The notes below the pieces were generated by a model that did not search any database, was not told the DNA's origin, and saw nothing but the letters and a program-made list of their open reading frames with translations. A program made the translations under genes and the position numbers. 64,000 nt of DNA from Hanstruepera flava. GTDB lineage: Bacteria > Bacteroidota > Bacteroidia > Flavobacteriales > Flavobacteriaceae. Positions 23,997 to 30,644 of this stretch are shown piece after piece. Location: NCBI RefSeq assembly GCF_023634025.1, contig NZ_JALJCW010000001.1, positions 1,029,501-1,093,500 on the forward strand, in the 5' to 3' direction. Position 1 is the first letter of the stretch; each line of letters opens with the position of its first letter.

Positions 23997-24027
23997 AAAA
24001 AAAGCGACCAATTGGTCGCTTTTTTTT
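23997..24027. terminator. Bidirectional terminator between lipoprotein and receptor genes
   Basis: AAAAAGCGACC / GGTCGCTTTTT stem with an AATT loop and A/T runs on either side. Confidence 0.9.
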
Positions 24028-26239
24028 AGAACTTCAAAGTTGCACCTAATAAAAAGTTAATGGTTGCTTGTGGGTAAAACCCTGCGCCTTCTATGGTTGT
24101 AACCTGTGGTGGGTTAGACCATGTATCATCATAAGTGTAGTAATACCCATTAGATTCATATTTAACATTAAAAATATTATTAACTAATCCTGTAAAAACA
24201 ATGGATTTTAAAAACGGTTGAGACTCCTCATCTCTTTTAAATGATAACTCGTAATTAATATTAAAATCGTTTACAAAGTAACTATCCAGTTTTGAGGCTT
24301 CAGCTTCAGTATTGCTCATATATTGGTCGCCAACATATTTACTTAATAATGACATTTGTAAACTTGGAGTGGGTTGAAATACTAAAGCATTGCCCACAAT
24401 TATATTGGGAGCAAAAGAAATATCTGTTTTTCCTAAATTAACTAACTCGCCATCTATTGAGGTTATAGTCTCTTTGTTTTTATTGGAACTTACAGTCAGG
24501 TTGGGCTGAACAGAAAACTTTTGACCAAGTTGTATGGCTGCCTCAATTTCTAACCCTAATCGATAGCTTTCACCACTGTTTGTGCGTATAGGATTTCCTA
24601 CGTTATCAAGCTCTCCCGTTAAAACCAACTGCTCATTGTAAAGCATGTAGTAGGCATTGGCGTAAAGCCTGAACACATCTGTATTGTAGCGCCAGCCCAA
24701 CTCAAAATCATTAAGTTGCTCAGGTTTGACATCTGGGTTATTTTCAAAATCATCACGATTGGGCTCCCTATTTGCTCTAGCATAAGAAAAATACAAACTA
24801 TTATTAGCATCAAGCGCATACGTTATACCAGCTTTTGGGTTAAAAAAGCTATAGTTTTCATCAATTAGTAATGGCACTCTATCTGATGTTAAACCTGTTG
24901 TTTTATAATCAACCAAGCGCAACTGTAAATCGGCAAACAAGCTAATCTTGTCATTTAATCTATAATTTGCTTTACCAAAGAAACTTAAATCTGTTTTAGT
25001 CCCGTTTCCTTCGTAATATCTGTCAGTATTCATACTATTACTTGCAAATTGTGCCCAAATAATTTCTCCAAAATGGTCGCCATCGTAATAACTATATGAT
25101 CCTCCAAAAATAGCGTCTAAACCGCCTTTTTTGTAATTAGCGTTTGCGTTTACCACATAAAAATCGTTATCTAACCAACGCCTTCTAACCAAATCGGTTT
25201 CTGTTACCGTTTCGCTTCCTATTACAACATCATTTAATCCGTAATCCGCAAAAGGCTCATCTTCTTTATATTGTTCAAAATAGCCACGACCATAAGTATA
25301 GTTTAAAGCCAAATTAGTTGACCAATAATTGTTATAGCGTTCATTCCAGTGTAATTGATAATGGTCTTGCTGGTAATTATCAACTTCGTTTTCATAAAAT
25401 TGAATGTTACCGTTTTCGTCTGTGTACTCGCCAGCTGTATTGTAGGTTCTATCGTTTTCAAGTTTATCTAAATCCTCTAAACCGTTCCAAGATTGATACG
25501 TTCTTTCTTTTCCAGCAAAAGTTATGGCCTTGATAATACGCTTATCATCAACATAAGAACCTTGAAGGAAATACGACTTTAAATCGGATGAGGCTCGATC
25601 AATATATCCATCAGATTGAATGGTTGACAATCTTCCTGCCACTTCAAAATGATCGTTTAGTAAACCCGTACTAAATTTTAACGTGTGTTTATGCGTATTG
25701 AAACTTCCAAAAGAATTGGCAAATTCGGCATAAGCGTTTTCCGAAACAGCATCAGTCAATACATTGATACTTGCACCAAAAGCTCCAGAACCATTGGTTG
25801 AAGTTCCCACACCACGTTGCAATTGTAAACTTTCAACAGATGATGCAAAATCTCCTAAATTAACCCAAAATGTTCCTAACGACTCGGCATCGTTATACGG
25901 AATACCGTTAATGGTTATATTGGTAGATTGCGCATTAATACCACGAACACGAATACCCGTGTAGCCGACTCCTGCACCTGCATCGGTTGTCGTAACTACC
26001 GACGGTAAATAGTTAAGAAGAATAGGAATATCCTGACCTAGGTTACGCTCTTGAATTTCTTCTTTAGAAACGTTTGAGTGTGTAATTGGCGATGTTGCCT
26101 TAACACGCACTGCACTTACCATAACCTCGTTTAAAACCTCAAGTTTTGTAGAGTCGTTTTGTTGTTCGTTAGGTTTTTCTTGAGCACAAACACTCATGGC
26201 AAAACCCAAAAAGCCTAAAATTGTGAATAAAGATTTCAT
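24026..26239 (-). CDS. TonB-dependent receptor, predicted thiamine-compound uptake
   Basis: A 737-residue outer-membrane receptor: signal peptide (residues 1-19), plug domain at about 50-165 (ILLNYLPSVVTTTDAGAG, GIRVRGINAQSTNI, INGIPYND, LQRGVGTSTNGSGAFGASINVLT), then a 22-strand-type barrel ending in ATINFLLGATLKF with the C-terminal Phe. The substrate cannot be read from the protein, but a TPP riboswitch and a good promoter precede it, and thiamine transport genes lie just upstream. Rodionov and co-workers described thiamine-regulated TonB receptors of this sort in Bacteroidetes; import of thiamine or a precursor is therefore the best call. The promoter starts next to the arfB stop, so it is a separate transcript from the upstream operon. 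Confidence 0.9.
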   Translation of the reverse strand: MKSLFTILGFLGFAMSVCAQEKPNEQQNDSTKLEVLNEVMVSAVRVKATSPITHSNVSKEEIQERNLGQDIPILLNYLPSVVTTTDAGAGVGYTGIRVRGINAQSTNITINGIPYNDAESLGTFWVNLGDFASSVESLQLQRGVGTSTNGSGAFGASINVLTDAVSENAYAEFANSFGSFNTHKHTLKFSTGLLNDHFEVAGRLSTIQSDGYIDRASSDLKSYFLQGSYVDDKRIIKAITFAGKERTYQSWNGLEDLDKLENDRTYNTAGEYTDENGNIQFYENEVDNYQQDHYQLHWNERYNNYWSTNLALNYTYGRGYFEQYKEDEPFADYGLNDVVIGSETVTETDLVRRRWLDNDFYVVNANANYKKGGLDAIFGGSYSYYDGDHFGEIIWAQFASNSMNTDRYYEGNGTKTDLSFFGKANYRLNDKISLFADLQLRLVDYKTTGLTSDRVPLLIDENYSFFNPKAGITYALDANNSLYFSYARANREPNRDDFENNPDVKPEQLNDFELGWRYNTDVFRLYANAYYMLYNEQLVLTGELDNVGNPIRTNSGESYRLGLEIEAAIQLGQKFSVQPNLTVSSNKNKETITSIDGELVNLGKTDISFAPNIIVGNALVFQPTPSLQMSLLSKYVGDQYMSNTEAEASKLDSYFVNDFNINYELSFKRDEESQPFLKSIVFTGLVNNIFNVKYESNGYYYTYDDTWSNPPQVTTIEGAGFYPQATINFLLGATLKF

Positions 26240-26298
26240 TCGATAAATAAATTTATACGAATAAAAAGAGGTAATTATTCTTTGGTTAAAAAAACATT

Positions 26299-26325
26299 AG
26301 ATGCTTCGACAAGCTCAGCATGACA
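26299..26325 (+). repeat. D-type hairpin repeat in the riboswitch leader
   Basis: AGATGCTTCGACAAG then CTCAGCATGACA, arms ATGCT / AGCAT. It lies between the riboswitch and the receptor ATG, where an expression platform would normally be. Confidence 0.78.
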
Positions 26326-26328
26326 ATT

Positions 26329-26407
26329 AAAAATTCCTAAACAGCATTACCTGTTCTAGGTTCAATGGGTATGATCTCAGCCGATAATTGGCACCCCTTT
26401 TTGAGAA
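26329..26407 (-). promoter_or_regulatory. TPP riboswitch
   Basis: On the minus strand the conserved core is in order: GGGGTGCC (26397-26390), GGCTGAGAT (to 26374), ATACCC, GAACCT, ACAGGTAATGC (to 26344). Closing arms are A-rich and T-rich. These are the hallmarks of the THI element, which binds thiamine pyrophosphate and turns off the downstream gene. Which platform it uses (transcription or translation) is unclear because a hairpin repeat fills the following segment. Confidence 0.95.
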
Positions 26408-26412
26408 CAGTG

Positions 26413-26442
26413 CAAATTTAATGATCAATTCATAATTAACAA
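26413..26442 (-). promoter_or_regulatory. Promoter of the riboswitch-controlled receptor
   Basis: Minus-strand TTG (26442-26440), 19-base spacer, TAAATTTG (26420-26413), the exact flavobacterial pattern, a few bases before the riboswitch. Confidence 0.75.
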
Positions 26443-26449
26443 TGAAAAA

Positions 26450-26857
26450 TCAAGTTATTTCTGGTGGTTTTCTATTGGCTTTTTTATCAGATTGTTGGCG
26501 CTTTTTTGCCAATCGTTTTAGCTTAACTGATTTAGGTATTTTGGTTGGTTTTCGCTTTTTGGGAATTACTAAACCTTGATTTATCAATTCTAAAAATCGC
26601 TTGATCACTAAATCTTTGTTTTTGTGTTGGCTACGACTGCCATCACTTTGCAGTATAAGCACTCCTTCAAATGTTAATCGGTTTGCCAGATTTTTAAACA
26701 ATAACTCTTTTTGCTCTTCTAGAAATACTTGGGAATTAGTTAAATCGAAACTTAACACAACCTTTGATGACACCTTATTGACATGCTGACCACCAGCGCC
26801 CGAACTACGGACAGCCTTAAACTGTAATTCTGATATCAAAGCCTGCTCATCAAACAT
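26450..26857 (-). CDS. arfB: Alternative ribosome-rescue factor ArfB (YaeJ-type hydrolase)
   Basis: A 135-residue codon-independent release factor that frees stalled ribosomes. The catalytic GGQ is at residues 22-24 within RSSGAGGQHVNKVSSKV, and the C-terminal tail is strongly basic (KKRKPTKIPKSVKLKRLAKKR), as needed to enter the empty mRNA channel. It begins one base after DUF4301 and is the last gene of the operon that contains the thiamine transport genes; any functional link is unclear. Confidence 0.95.
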   Translation of the reverse strand: MFDEQALISELQFKAVRSSGAGGQHVNKVSSKVVLSFDLTNSQVFLEEQKELLFKNLANRLTFEGVLILQSDGSRSQHKNKDLVIKRFLELINQGLVIPKKRKPTKIPKSVKLKRLAKKRQQSDKKANRKPPEIT

Positions 26858-26858
26858 C

Positions 26859-28409
26859 TTATTTTATTTGATGAGTTGGTTTTAACAAATCTGTGACTGT
26901 TTTTACAGGGTTGAATGTAATTAAAGGCACTTCAACGAAAATAGAATTCCAATTAGCCATACTGCCATTCCAAAGTCCAGGTAACTCTAAAGCCTTAAGC
27001 TCTTTACCTGTTTTGGTTTTCATGGTAATAAAAGCTGTTTTAGGATCAACAAATGCCTCCAGATTAAAAGTATTGCCTTTATAATCTTTTATTCCACAAA
27101 CCAAGTCAACCGGATTAAAATGTGTGGCATGCTTAAGAATATTTTTTTGTCGTTTATCTTTTTTATTGATTTGAGCAGACTCAACTATCTGTAAAGAAAC
27201 TTGCCCACTTTCATCTTTCACCCAAAATGGCCCACCACCTGGTTCTCCTTCATTTTTCACCATACCGCAAACACGAATTGGTCGATTTAATTTTGTTCTT
27301 AAATATTCAATTTGATATTTTTTTGAATACTTTTCAAACTCACTGGATATTTTAGTATTGAGTTTATTACTTAAAAATTCAGCAATCTCAACCAAATGAC
27401 TTTCTGTTATATCTTGGTTCTCTAATTGTCTTAAATAATCGAATGTTTTGTTCTGGAGTGATACCAACAATCCAGCAAGAGCCTTTTTATAATTGGCTAC
27501 TTCTTTTTCATACTTAAAAACAACAACATTATCTATGTTTTTTATAAAAATGATGTCGGCTTCCTGTTCGTTTAAATTGTGTAGTAAGGCACCATGACCT
27601 GAAGGTCTGAACAACAAACTTCCATCCTCTAAACGAAATGGTTCATTTTCTGGAGTAACAGCAATAGTATCGGTAGATTCTTTTTGATACGAAAAAGATA
27701 TATGGAACTTTGTATTTGTTTTTCGTTCTACAATATCCTGAATACGTTTAAATTCATCATCAAAAATATGTTCGTATCGCTCTGAAATGGTGAAATGTAA
27801 ATGTGCTTTTTGCTGACTTGAAGCATATAGAGCGGCTTCAAATAAATGCTCTTCAAAAGCCGTTGAAATATGTCCCTTATATTGATGAAATGGTAGTAAA
27901 CCCTTTGGGAAAAATCCATAATTCAGTTTATCAGCATCCAACATGGTTTTTACAAAATAGTACCGATGCTCATCATTTGAAAACGCTTTATAGTCTGGAT
28001 AATGGGTTTCCATCTCCTTCTTAACTTCATCATAAAACGGAAACTTTTCTAAACCAACAAAAAACAGTGAAAGTGTAGAATCTTTTTCTTTGTTTAAATA
28101 GGCATTTAATGTTTCAATTTCAGGGTTGTAAGTTTCACTAAACTTGAACAGAGACTTAAACATGCGTGTTGCAGCTCCTGAAGCTGGCACAAATTTTAAT
28201 ATAGAATTATTGTCTCTTCGTAAATCAAACAAATCTATTAATCGTTGTTGTTCGTCTTCAGACATTTTCAATATCCCGTCGCCATAAGTTGCTGCTGAAA
28301 CCAAATTCACAAATGGCAAACCTTGTTTAAACAACTGTATTTGTTCTTTGACTTTAGCTTCGGTAAGACCTTTGCTTTTTATTTGAAGATAATCCTTTTC
28401 TAAAAGCAT
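26859..28409 (-). CDS. DUF4301 family protein
   Basis: A 516-residue protein known only as DUF4301 in Bacteroidota. It has no signal peptide. Near residues 73-84 is VPASGAATRMFK, which resembles the glycine-rich signature of sugar-nucleotide pyrophosphorylases (GxGTRM followed by Lys); FRPSGHGALLHNLNE near 267 and VCGMVKNEGEPGGGPFWVKD near 380 are other strongly conserved-looking parts. I infer a nucleotidyltransferase-like fold, but the function is unknown. It follows the NadR-like kinase without a gap and precedes arfB by one base. Confidence 0.85.
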   Translation of the reverse strand: MLLEKDYLQIKSKGLTEAKVKEQIQLFKQGLPFVNLVSAATYGDGILKMSEDEQQRLIDLFDLRRDNNSILKFVPASGAATRMFKSLFKFSETYNPEIETLNAYLNKEKDSTLSLFFVGLEKFPFYDEVKKEMETHYPDYKAFSNDEHRYYFVKTMLDADKLNYGFFPKGLLPFHQYKGHISTAFEEHLFEAALYASSQQKAHLHFTISERYEHIFDDEFKRIQDIVERKTNTKFHISFSYQKESTDTIAVTPENEPFRLEDGSLLFRPSGHGALLHNLNEQEADIIFIKNIDNVVVFKYEKEVANYKKALAGLLVSLQNKTFDYLRQLENQDITESHLVEIAEFLSNKLNTKISSEFEKYSKKYQIEYLRTKLNRPIRVCGMVKNEGEPGGGPFWVKDESGQVSLQIVESAQINKKDKRQKNILKHATHFNPVDLVCGIKDYKGNTFNLEAFVDPKTAFITMKTKTGKELKALELPGLWNGSMANWNSIFVEVPLITFNPVKTVTDLLKPTHQIK

Positions 28410-28979
28410 TTAATGGTTTTCATTTAATAATTTATCAATATGGAAAATTGCTAAATTTAAGCGTTCCTTTTTATTACCTTTTAACAACACAAAAGGTTTT
28501 TGGTGTTTAACTAGGGCCTCTCTAAAAGCTAAAAACATAGCCTCGCGCTCATTCGGTTTATCCCTTAAATCATCAGCTTCCCAAGGTGTGTCAATATAGG
28601 TCAAAAAATACAAATCGTACGTATTTTGTAAAGCATATTTTTCTAGAATTGGGTCGCAAGCACCAGAATAATAAGTTTCAGAATACACCTTGGTTTCCAA
28701 TAGATCTGTATCGCAAATTAATACCGAATCTGTTTTTTGGGCCAATTCATTTTCAAGTCTCATTTGTCCAATTGCTATAGGAAGCAAATCTTTTGACTCA
28801 CAAGTTTTACGTTCGTTATTCCATTTATCCTGCAAATATTCCCGAGCGTATTCTGGAACCCAAACAGAATTGTAATGTCTGGCCAACTGTTTGGACAATG
28901 TTGTTTTCCCAGTTGATTCTGGGCCGAATAAAACGACTTTTATACAGTTTGCCGGTTGTTGTTTAAGCTTTTCTTCCAT
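28410..28979 (-). CDS. NadR-like P-loop kinase, candidate thiamine kinase
   Basis: A 189-residue ATPase similar to the ribosylnicotinamide-kinase domain of NadR: P-loop FGPESTGKTTLS (residues 18-29), VPEYAREYL near 46, CDTDLLETKVYSETY as Walker B region near 109, and the lid-type DLRDKPNEREAMF. NadR's N-terminal regulator and adenylyltransferase domains are missing. It overlaps the 3' end of the PnuC-type transporter gene by 40 bases, so the two are translationally tied. In a thiamine context it would trap imported vitamin by phosphorylation; with nicotinamide riboside as substrate it would serve NAD salvage. The riboswitch next door and the thiamine-binding protein favour thiamine. Confidence 0.82.
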   Translation of the reverse strand: MEEKLKQQPANCIKVVLFGPESTGKTTLSKQLARHYNSVWVPEYAREYLQDKWNNERKTCESKDLLPIAIGQMRLENELAQKTDSVLICDTDLLETKVYSETYYSGACDPILEKYALQNTYDLYFLTYIDTPWEADDLRDKPNEREAMFLAFREALVKHQKPFVLLKGNKKERLNLAIFHIDKLLNENH

Positions 28980-29572
28980 GCTAAATATCCAAATATTGCT
29001 ATTATGGTAAACCCTAAATACTGGAGGCTAGTAAATGTAAATCCTTTATAGAAATATAAAGGCACTGAAATGACATCGCCAATAATCCAGAAAATCCAGT
29101 TTTCAATTTTACGCCTGGCCATAAGCCACATGCCCACAAAGAAAATAGCTGTGGTTAACGTATCTACATAAGCCACCCAACTAGTCCATTTATCAAAGGT
29201 TTGATATACCACAAAAACAAACACTAATGTTGCCAAAAATATTGCAGCACTCATGATATTTTCTTTTTTTGTGGTTGTTGAAATTGGTGTTACGTGGGTT
29301 TCATCTACTTTTCGAGTCCAAACATACCAACCATAAACACTCATAATAAAATAATACCCATTTATCATCATATCACCCAACAAACCCCATTTCAGTAATA
29401 GATATACAAAAATAAGTGTGCTAATCATACCTGTTGGAAAGACCCAGATTTTGTTCTGTTTTGAATACCAAACTGACAAAAACCCAAAAATAACAGCCAC
29501 AATTTCCAATACAATATCTACAGTATCATACCCTTGATACTGTCCGAAAAAAAAATCAAAAATGGGGTTCAT
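28940..29572 (-). CDS. pnuT: PnuC-family vitamin transporter, predicted thiamine-type (PnuT)
   Basis: A 210-residue inner-membrane protein with about seven helices and PnuC-family motifs: EIVAVIFGFLSVWYSKQNKIWVFPTG (in the first 55 residues), NGYYFIMSVYGWYVWTRK and NWIFWIIGDVISVPLYFYKG. PnuC proteins pass nicotinamide riboside; PnuT relatives pass thiamine by facilitated diffusion and need a kinase to trap it. It overlaps a thiamine-binding protein gene (17 bases) on one side and a NadR-like kinase gene on the other. I favour thiamine, but the ligand has not been shown by sequence alone. Confidence 0.85.
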   Translation of the reverse strand: MNPIFDFFFGQYQGYDTVDIVLEIVAVIFGFLSVWYSKQNKIWVFPTGMISTLIFVYLLLKWGLLGDMMINGYYFIMSVYGWYVWTRKVDETHVTPISTTTKKENIMSAAIFLATLVFVFVVYQTFDKWTSWVAYVDTLTTAIFFVGMWLMARRKIENWIFWIIGDVISVPLYFYKGFTFTSLQYLGFTIIAIFGYLAWKKSLNNNRQTV

Positions 29573-29816
29573 AATCGTGTCTATCAGTTTTTACGATTTT
29601 CATATATAACAAACCATTTTCCATAAGCTCAAAAGCTTCTTTGATTTCTGTTTGCAACAAGGCCATCACTTGATCATAATCGCCATAAACTTGAGTGCTT
29701 AATGGGTTTTCCAACACCTTTAAATTTGAAGCACGAAGTTTTTTAATAAAGTGTATAATTGCAGGTTCAAATTCATTCTGCAAAGGTGTTAACGTTAGTT
29801 CTACTGATATTTTCAT
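29556..29816 (-). CDS. YkoF/MTH1187-like thiamine-binding protein
   Basis: An 86-residue soluble protein with the single-domain ferredoxin-like pattern of the MTH1187/YkoF family: ISVELTLTPL at the N-terminus, HFIKKLRASNLKV, then PLSTQVYGDYDQVMALL. YkoF binds thiamine and its pyrimidine part. It has no signal peptide, so it is cytosolic. The gene overlaps the transporter gene by 17 bases. It probably binds incoming thiamine or its HMP half, as inferred from family and position. Confidence 0.82.
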   Translation of the reverse strand: MKISVELTLTPLQNEFEPAIIHFIKKLRASNLKVLENPLSTQVYGDYDQVMALLQTEIKEAFELMENGLLYMKIVKTDRHDYEPHF

Positions 29817-29873: not shown

Positions 29874-30644
29874 TTAGTACTGTTGTTTCCTCTTTTGAGG
29901 AAATGTCTGCAGGACAAACGGGTTTTTAATTTCTTCAAAAAATGTTTCATCTTCTTCAAACGCTGTTCCTATAACAACTAAATCTGCTCCAGAACTATAA
30001 GCAGATACCAATTGTTGTTTTGATCTGATTCCTCCTCCAACAATTAAAGGAATCTTCAATTTGTTTTTAACTTGAGTAATTATTTCTGTAGTCACCGAAT
30101 GTATGGCTCCACTTCCTGCTTCAAGATATATGAGTTTCATTCCTAATAATTCGCCAGCTTTAGCTGTATCTGCTATTAACTGAACGTTTTTTCTTGGTAT
30201 TGGCATTGTTTCTGTTACACGTTGTACAGCCGTTTCTTTTCCGTTTTCAATTAAAATATATCCAGTTGGAATAACTTCTAAATTAGATTCTTCTAATAGA
30301 GAGATAGATTGAATATGTTTACCTATTAAATAATCTGGGTTTCTTCCTGATATTAAGGATAAAAATAAAAGCGCATCGGCTTCATTAGTAATTTGGGTAA
30401 TATCACCAGGAAATAATATCACAGGCAATTGTGTAAACTTTTTTATCTCTGAAACTATGGTTTCTGTTTGGCTTTTTTCAACTTCACTTCCTCCCACAAA
30501 AATATGTGTAGCAATTGATTCATTCACCTTATTGATAAAGGTTTCTGTATTGTCTAAAGGAAACTTGTCAGGATCTATAAGAACTGCCAACAACTTTTCG
30601 CCATTAGAAACAGAAAGTAATATGTTATTATAAATATGTTTCAT
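29874..30644 (-). CDS. Geranylgeranylglyceryl-phosphate synthase-like (GGGPS/PcrB family)
   Basis: A 256-residue TIM-barrel prenyltransferase. Family features are LLAVLIDPDKF near residues 18-28, FVGGSEVEK near 49-57, LFLSLISGRNPDYLIGKH, TGYILIENG and the phosphate-binding GSGA...IVGGGIRSKQQL and DLVVIGTAFEED. In archaea this enzyme joins glycerol-1-phosphate to a C20 prenyl group; group II bacterial members also occur in Bacteroidota, where their lipid product is not settled. It follows the phosphopantetheinyl transferase gene without a gap and probably opens the transcript into the thiamine genes. Confidence 0.92.
   Translation of the reverse strand: MKHIYNNILLSVSNGEKLLAVLIDPDKFPLDNTETFINKVNESIATHIFVGGSEVEKSQTETIVSEIKKFTQLPVILFPGDITQITNEADALLFLSLISGRNPDYLIGKHIQSISLLEESNLEVIPTGYILIENGKETAVQRVTETMPIPRKNVQLIADTAKAGELLGMKLIYLEAGSGAIHSVTTEIITQVKNKLKIPLIVGGGIRSKQQLVSAYSSGADLVVIGTAFEEDETFFEEIKNPFVLQTFPQKRKQQY

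Follow-up and report, generated by a model that had tools for sequence, protein, structure and literature searches.

A NadR-like kinase gene cluster of Hanstruepera flava as a probable vitamin B1 capture-and-trap system

In Escherichia coli, thiamine is converted to thiamine monophosphate (TMP) by ThiK (YcfN), an enzyme with the aminoglycoside-phosphotransferase fold, and the product is then passed to ThiL. Kinase domains of the NadR type transfer a single phosphate to an alcohol, and PnuT transporters reportedly move thiamine by facilitated diffusion, to go by the title of a 2018 paper of Jaehme. One report gives the NadR-type kinase reaction as the conversion of nicotinamide riboside (NR) to nicotinamide mononucleotide (NMN) (PMC7221760). 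For Bacteroides, another describes both the gene order pnuT-tnr3 and the transport of thiamine by PnuT (PMC5613172). The OMthi/omr1-pnuT-tnr3 operons of Bacteroides and its relatives bring together a riboswitch, a TonB receptor, a Pnu transporter and a thiamine-phosphorylating enzyme (PMC5613172). Locus L211, from another Bacteroidia genome, has these elements in the order riboswitch, TonB receptor, PnuC and thiamine pyrophosphokinase (TPK). A similar set of genes was analyzed in a 64,000-nucleotide stretch of the Hanstruepera flava genome (positions 1,029,501 to 1,093,500 of contig NZ_JALJCW010000001.1; hereafter the window, whose own numbering is used below), in which a NadR-like kinase occupies the place of TPK. 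The cluster is probably a vitamin B1 capture-and-trap system whose kinase would convert thiamine to TMP. The case owes its strength to the agreement of four observations: a pathway gap, linkage to a thiamine pyrophosphate (TPP) riboswitch and to PnuC, mutual exclusion with TPK, and in-place decay of the kinase in TPK genomes. The same observations favor the original prediction, drawn from the letters of the window, that a thiamine kinase of NadR descent replaces TPK here.

The features of the predicted system all lie on the minus strand and are as follows.
29556 to 29816, minus strand: thiamine-binding protein of the MTH1187/YkoF type, 86 residues (PF01910, 28.3 bits, cut-off 24.9)
28940 to 29572, minus strand: Pnu-family transporter (PnuC), putative thiamine facilitator PnuT (PF04973, 186.4 bits)
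28410 to 28979, minus strand: NadR-like P-loop kinase, 189 residues, candidate thiamine kinase (PF13521, AAA_28, 152.9 bits)
26317 to 26408, minus strand: TPP riboswitch ahead of the TonB receptor gene (RF00059, 49.9 bits, E 3.2e-9)
24026 to 26239, minus strand: TonB-dependent receptor, putative outer-membrane thiamine receptor (PF00593 and PF07715)

The thiamine-binding protein gene is the first in the thiamine part of the operon; it overlaps PnuC by 17 bases, and PnuC overlaps the kinase gene by 40 bases. These overlaps and the gene coordinates had been read correctly in the original prediction, as had the position of the receptor gene (24026 to 26239) behind a TPP riboswitch, located here by the RF00059 match at 26317 to 26408. 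The match covers all 105 positions of the model with a score below the gathering score of 54.3; it appeared only in a focused scan, and Rfam run over the entire window with default settings reported no match. The receptor is 40% identical to that of the L211 operon.

In the proposed system, the riboswitch-controlled TonB receptor would carry thiamine across the outer membrane and PnuC/PnuT would carry it across the inner one. The NadR-like protein of 189 residues would then use ATP to convert thiamine to TMP, which would be trapped inside the cell, and ThiL would convert TMP to TPP. The small thiamine-binding protein would be part of the kinase route, in which it may keep cytosolic thiamine bound or pass it on. 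Four elements of this scheme are inferred: the substrate, the product, the direction of flow and what the binding protein does. In contrast to the OMthi/omr1-pnuT-tnr3 operons, the NadR-like kinase replaces TPK, ThiL is needed, and a thiamine-binding protein is usually present. The scheme resembles the ThiK route of E. coli in the predicted formation of TMP followed by ThiL. Unlike ThiK, the window kinase matches AAA_28 only and so does not have the aminoglycoside-phosphotransferase type of fold; no match to TPK_catalytic (PF04263) was found in it.

The pathway gap was examined in the genome of the window (G000; 3.09 Mb, listed as 99.99% complete). The ThiL gene lies on the contig of the cluster, at a distance of about 57 kb. 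No match to TPK (PF04263), ThiC or ThiE was obtained in the profile searches of this genome, which did not include ThiK and ThiN. The usual pyrophosphokinase is thus missing, as originally claimed, and a classical TPK elsewhere in the genome, named at the time as evidence that would speak against the idea, was not found. Of the genome search suggested with the prediction, the parts on TPK and on other NadR copies were carried out; neither a TPK nor a second NadR-like gene appeared, the window kinase being the only NadR-like gene of G000, and ThiL was present without another TMP source having been found. Because ThiL uses TMP, ThiE gives no match and PnuT is taken to work by facilitated diffusion, the TMP should come from phosphorylation of thiamine.

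The wider sample consisted of 149 Flavobacteriaceae genomes and 153 genomes from elsewhere in the class. Within the family, the kinase is matched in 142 genomes, TPK in 13, ThiC in 34 and ThiL, over cut-off, in all 149; ThiE is over cut-off in 55 (one cross-tabulation used the 54 full-length ThiE matches). With ThiL in 149 of 149 genomes, a kinase need add one phosphate only, and we infer that the activity to be filled is a thiamine monokinase rather than a pyrophosphokinase.

Two of the 142 kinase matches are decayed (G276 and G274) and were counted as lost, which gives nine genomes lacking the kinase. Of the 38 genomes that have ThiC, TPK or both, 9 show loss or decay of the kinase; the remaining 111 show none (p = 2e-6). 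TPK is present in six of the nine kinase-lacking genomes versus 7 of the 140 others (p = 9e-6). Every ThiC-less genome (115/115) has the kinase or TPK, 113 having the kinase and the other two TPK. The three genomes with neither enzyme (G172, G292 and G295) contain ThiC and ThiE and give no PnuC match. Among the 14 genomes of at most 2.2 Mb, 13 have the kinase and are ThiC-less, and the sole kinase-less genome is also the sole one with ThiC; nine of the 14 have NadA.

Decay in place is seen in four TPK genomes. The kinase gene of G276 contains three in-frame stops, that of G274 is a fragment, that of G234 is deleted down to a 19-residue remnant, and in G272 the kinase is gone with no match remaining in the gap. 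PnuC and the rest of the home locus are retained in all four, and the thiamine-binding protein is also missing. Outside the family, 29 of the 153 genomes have TPK, 80 have the kinase and none has both, with a p value of 1e-11 that is nominal, the genomes being related. This count leaves out 25 of 110 genomes whose matches were weaker than 1e-15 and mostly covered the P-loop only, and at least one retained genome (G094) carries a full-length NadR instead of a stand-alone kinase.

PnuC adjoins the kinase in 79 of 80 kinase loci of Flavobacteriaceae relatives, one locus having a decayed kinase. In a second genome collection it lies upstream of the kinase in every one of the 79 loci whose sequence extends 1.5 kb or more in that direction; the two collections (80 loci; 79 or 72 loci) may have genomes in common. 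G000 contains one PnuC match in total. Among the kinase-lacking genomes, PnuC is found in all six with TPK (a divergent type in G159 and 38% identical in G254) and in none of the three without. Since PnuC outlasts the kinase where TPK is present, the transporter is likely a thiamine transporter (PnuT), with the kinase and TPK interchangeable behind it. The PnuC tree has long branches and favors no particular substrate. A supported group unites four of the six PnuCs from loci labelled NadR; two lie outside it, including that of L221, whose kinase is no NadR, and the two PnuCs of TPK operons do not join the group of the window protein. A divergent second type of PnuC occurs in two TPK genomes, at L146:5346-5927 (G272) and L190:8953-9576 (G159), and the two are grouped in the tree.

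The linkage of the kinase to the riboswitch exceeds chance. In at least 76 of the 110 Flavobacteriaceae genomes with a kinase match and a listed riboswitch, a riboswitch in the same orientation follows the kinase at a distance of 0 to 9 kb downstream; among the covariance-model matches listed for the other 34, none lies within 9 kb of the kinase in any other orientation. In the second genome collection, a riboswitch-like element and a receptor are found within 6 kb downstream of the kinase in 57 of 72 loci. Regular-expression matches (at most two mismatches) include chance ones and were never used alone, so that each riboswitch count is of covariance matches or of pattern matches with an adjacent receptor required. 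The riboswitch begins 7 to 65 bases past the kinase in the reduced genomes G299, G208, G284 and G293, at whose kinase loci DUF4301 and ArfB, two proteins also encoded in the window cluster, were not found. Only one TPP riboswitch (L176) was found by Rfam among 19 kinase loci from outside the Flavobacteriaceae, examined with 1.5 kb flanks, and close linkage is therefore mainly a feature of this family.

The thiamine-binding protein tracks the kinase and not thiamine use as such. PF01910 is matched at E 0.001 in 104 of the 149 Flavobacteriaceae (79 over cut-off), in none of the 13 TPK genomes versus 104 of the 136 others (p = 4e-8). When only genomes whose kinase appears intact are compared, all seven that have TPK still lack it (p = 5e-5). 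The PF01910 count is a lower bound, as two genomes without a profile match, G222 and G264, have the binding protein according to BLAST; when the PnuC loci of the 13 genomes with TPK were searched with 60 homologues as queries, no whole copy was found. The only trace is a remnant of 23 residues in G204 (L126), which has both TPK and the kinase, and the binding protein may thus be lost earlier than the kinase. We suggest that the protein keeps thiamine bound for the kinase or delivers it to the enzyme.

The relation of the kinase to NadR was analyzed by structure prediction, profile searches and phylogeny. The model has a predicted local distance difference test (pLDDT) score of 95.2, and its nearest folds are NadR kinase domains (TM-score of 0.84 to 8x7f), followed by thymidylate kinases. 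The P-loop kinase fold is shared with the NadR kinase domains of Haemophilus influenzae (1LW7) and Lactococcus lactis (6GYE) and with 8X7F. A GxESTGK-type loop and residues E43, R46, D90-T91, D136, R139 and R145 (numbered as in the window protein) are shared with the NadRs of Bacteroidia. In contrast to NadR, the window kinase is a stand-alone protein of 189 residues whose gene is associated with a TPP riboswitch and with that of a thiamine-binding protein; Pfam finds no NMN adenylyltransferase domain in it, and TIGR01526 gives 105 bits against a cut-off of 341.

The lid segment also differs. All six full-length NadRs of Bacteroidia have G at position 137, as does one of the 47 stand-alone kinases; the window protein has D there; of the six NadRs, those of L140, L220 and L224 are confirmed by Pfam, and those of L222, L223 and L225 are assigned by length and P-loop position only. 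The stand-alone kinases have D or E at position 140 in 46 of 47, P142 in 44 of 47 and Q72 in 47 of 47. Their lid motif is mostly D-[D/P]-x-R-[D/E]-x-P, and the NadR-type D-G-x-R, a motif from our own comparison and not a curated signature, does not occur in the window protein. In the kinase tree, a branch (87/95) separates the stand-alone Bacteroidia kinases, with L221 counted among them, from the six full-length NadR-like proteins; a grouping of all seven rows labelled NadR, L221 included, is not rejected (p = 0.18).

Full-length NadR-like proteins adjoin PnuC in five of six cases, and genome G158 has both a full-length NadR system with its own PnuC and a stand-alone kinase. Rows of a TonB receptor, PnuC and a full-length NadR-like gene are seen in the Bacteroidia loci L140, L220 and L225; that of L225 has a receptor split across two frames and a NadR assigned by length and P-loop position only. 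These rows are probably dedicated NR uptake systems. Two fusions were encountered as well. The kinase is joined to a GNAT acetyltransferase domain next to PnuC at L221:4938-5984 (G148), and to an aldose 1-epimerase domain at L229:4074-5567 (G055), where the fused gene is preceded by PnuC and followed by a riboswitch-like element and a TonB receptor.

Several observations weigh against the assignment of the kinase to thiamine. The riboswitch leads the TonB receptor gene only and not the PnuC-kinase pair. In seven Flavobacteriaceae genomes, TPK occurs together with a kinase that appears intact. None of the 13 TPK loci of the family shows PnuC or a receptor, and among 10 TPK loci taken from the rest of the class, PnuC is present in two and a receptor with a riboswitch in one (L211). 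The genomes are related, and the ThiL tree offers only four independent supported pairs with a difference in TPK; on average, kinase loss sides with TPK in 2.1 of these pairs and runs against it in 0.0, an underpowered comparison with a median p of 0.5. Within the ThiC-containing genomes alone, the exclusion of kinase and TPK has a p value of 0.31 (G276 being counted as kinase-positive). TPK and NadA also co-occur (p = 0.002), and general prototrophy may confound the kinase-TPK pattern.

The strongest alternative is that PnuC and the kinase import and phosphorylate NR for the synthesis of nicotinamide adenine dinucleotide (NAD), the TPP riboswitch and receptor forming a separate unit. The best sequence and fold matches of the kinase are indeed NadR. 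NadA is matched in 61 of the 149 genomes and NAPRTase in 35 (34 in the NAD cross-table, from which a weak match in G204, a genome with NadA, was dropped), and G000 matches neither. All 69 genomes without NadA and NAPRTase matches, G000 included, have the kinase, and all nine kinase-lacking genomes have NadA or NAPRTase (p = 0.0037), as expected of an NR kinase; these distributions count against a thiamine kinase. However, the association with NAD genes is lost when TPK is held fixed (p = 0.24 and 1), whereas the TPK effect persists within the NadA or NAPRTase genomes (p = 2e-4). The original prediction had named co-occurrence with NAD genes in place of TPP riboswitches as contrary evidence; linkage to the riboswitches was found, and an NAD association does exist in the raw counts and vanishes on this control. 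An NR kinase would also leave unexplained the loss of the kinase with TPK, the retention of PnuC in kinase-lacking genomes only where TPK is present, and a thiamine-binding protein heading the operon. The genomes of at most 2.2 Mb would be equally puzzling, as the sole kinase-less one has ThiC although nine of the 14 have NadA. The kinase has no NMN adenylyltransferase domain, and full-length NadR systems with their own PnuC occur separately, once (G158) within a genome that also has a stand-alone kinase. NAD in G000 could be supplied by the kynurenine route, which is reported for Flavobacteriales (PMC4217691). The NR assignment is considered unlikely in view of these results.

A second alternative is that the kinase is itself a thiamine pyrophosphokinase that makes TPP directly. 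Its tendency to exclude TPK, whose product is TPP, is what such an enzyme would give, but ThiL is retained in all 149 genomes, including those without ThiE, where its evident use would be on TMP made by the kinase, and a NadR-type kinase moves one phosphate onto an alcohol. Direct formation of TPP was disfavored given the universal presence of ThiL in the sample, and this alternative is judged quite improbable. Small-molecule P-loop kinases can be promiscuous, and action on another alcohol of the pathway (hydroxymethylpyrimidine, HMP, or hydroxyethylthiazole) or on a broad range of substrates is the least probable alternative, since G000 has no ThiE match and just 55 of 149 genomes have one over cut-off, so that there would be no known enzyme to join the precursors.

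Three further genes of the window lie within or next to the cluster.
29874 to 30644, minus strand: PcrB-family geranylgeranylglyceryl phosphate (GGGP) synthase, a common upstream neighbour thought not to take part (PF01884)
26859 to 28409, minus strand: DUF4301 protein (PF14134, 743 bits)
26450 to 26857, minus strand: ArfB ribosome-rescue hydrolase (NF006718, 127 bits, cut-off 100)

The full order on the minus strand is phosphopantetheinyl transferase, PcrB-family protein, thiamine-binding protein, PnuC, kinase, DUF4301, ArfB, riboswitch and TonB receptor. The operon had first been placed directly upstream of the riboswitch; this placement was wrong, as DUF4301 and ArfB intervene. In the window, the start codon of DUF4301 immediately follows the kinase stop codon in the same frame, and single-frame fusions of kinase and DUF4301 are found in five relatives (G062, G283, G291, G290 and G160), at loci L071:9001-11118, L104:9001-11094, L110:7462-9558, L020 and L025. 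A functional tie between DUF4301 and the kinase is possible from this arrangement. The DUF4301 protein (26859 to 28409) weakly matches UTP-glucose-1-phosphate uridylyltransferases (18.6 bits, under cut-off). ArfB is probably a passenger of the operon.

No published proposal of a NadR-like thiamine kinase was found in the literature searched, a body that leaves most subscription journals outside its coverage. According to a study of 2025, eight Flavobacteriales and three Cytophagales genomes without key biosynthesis genes encode ThiL and a putative thiamine receptor, a pattern read there as salvage; its available part names no enzyme for the conversion of thiamine to TMP in those genomes (PMC12236431). 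The present candidate would fill that step in 113 of the 115 ThiC-less genomes sampled, the other two having TPK. It is conceivable, and offered tentatively, that the kinase represents a further family of thiamine-phosphorylating salvage enzymes, unrelated to TPK and ThiK and derived from an NR kinase. This family would be near-universal in Flavobacteriaceae and widespread in Bacteroidia, and would form a unit with PnuT and a dedicated cytosolic binding protein that presents thiamine; this binding protein would have no further use, and would be lost, each time a pyrophosphokinase takes over. The reading of the PnuC-kinase pair as an NR system, which is a likely one to be made, would be corrected, and predictions of vitamin B1 auxotrophy in Bacteroidia become testable with one enzyme assay. 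The kinase, present beside vitamin B1 uptake genes in nearly all flavobacterial genomes sampled, would close a gap in flavobacterial vitamin B1 salvage.

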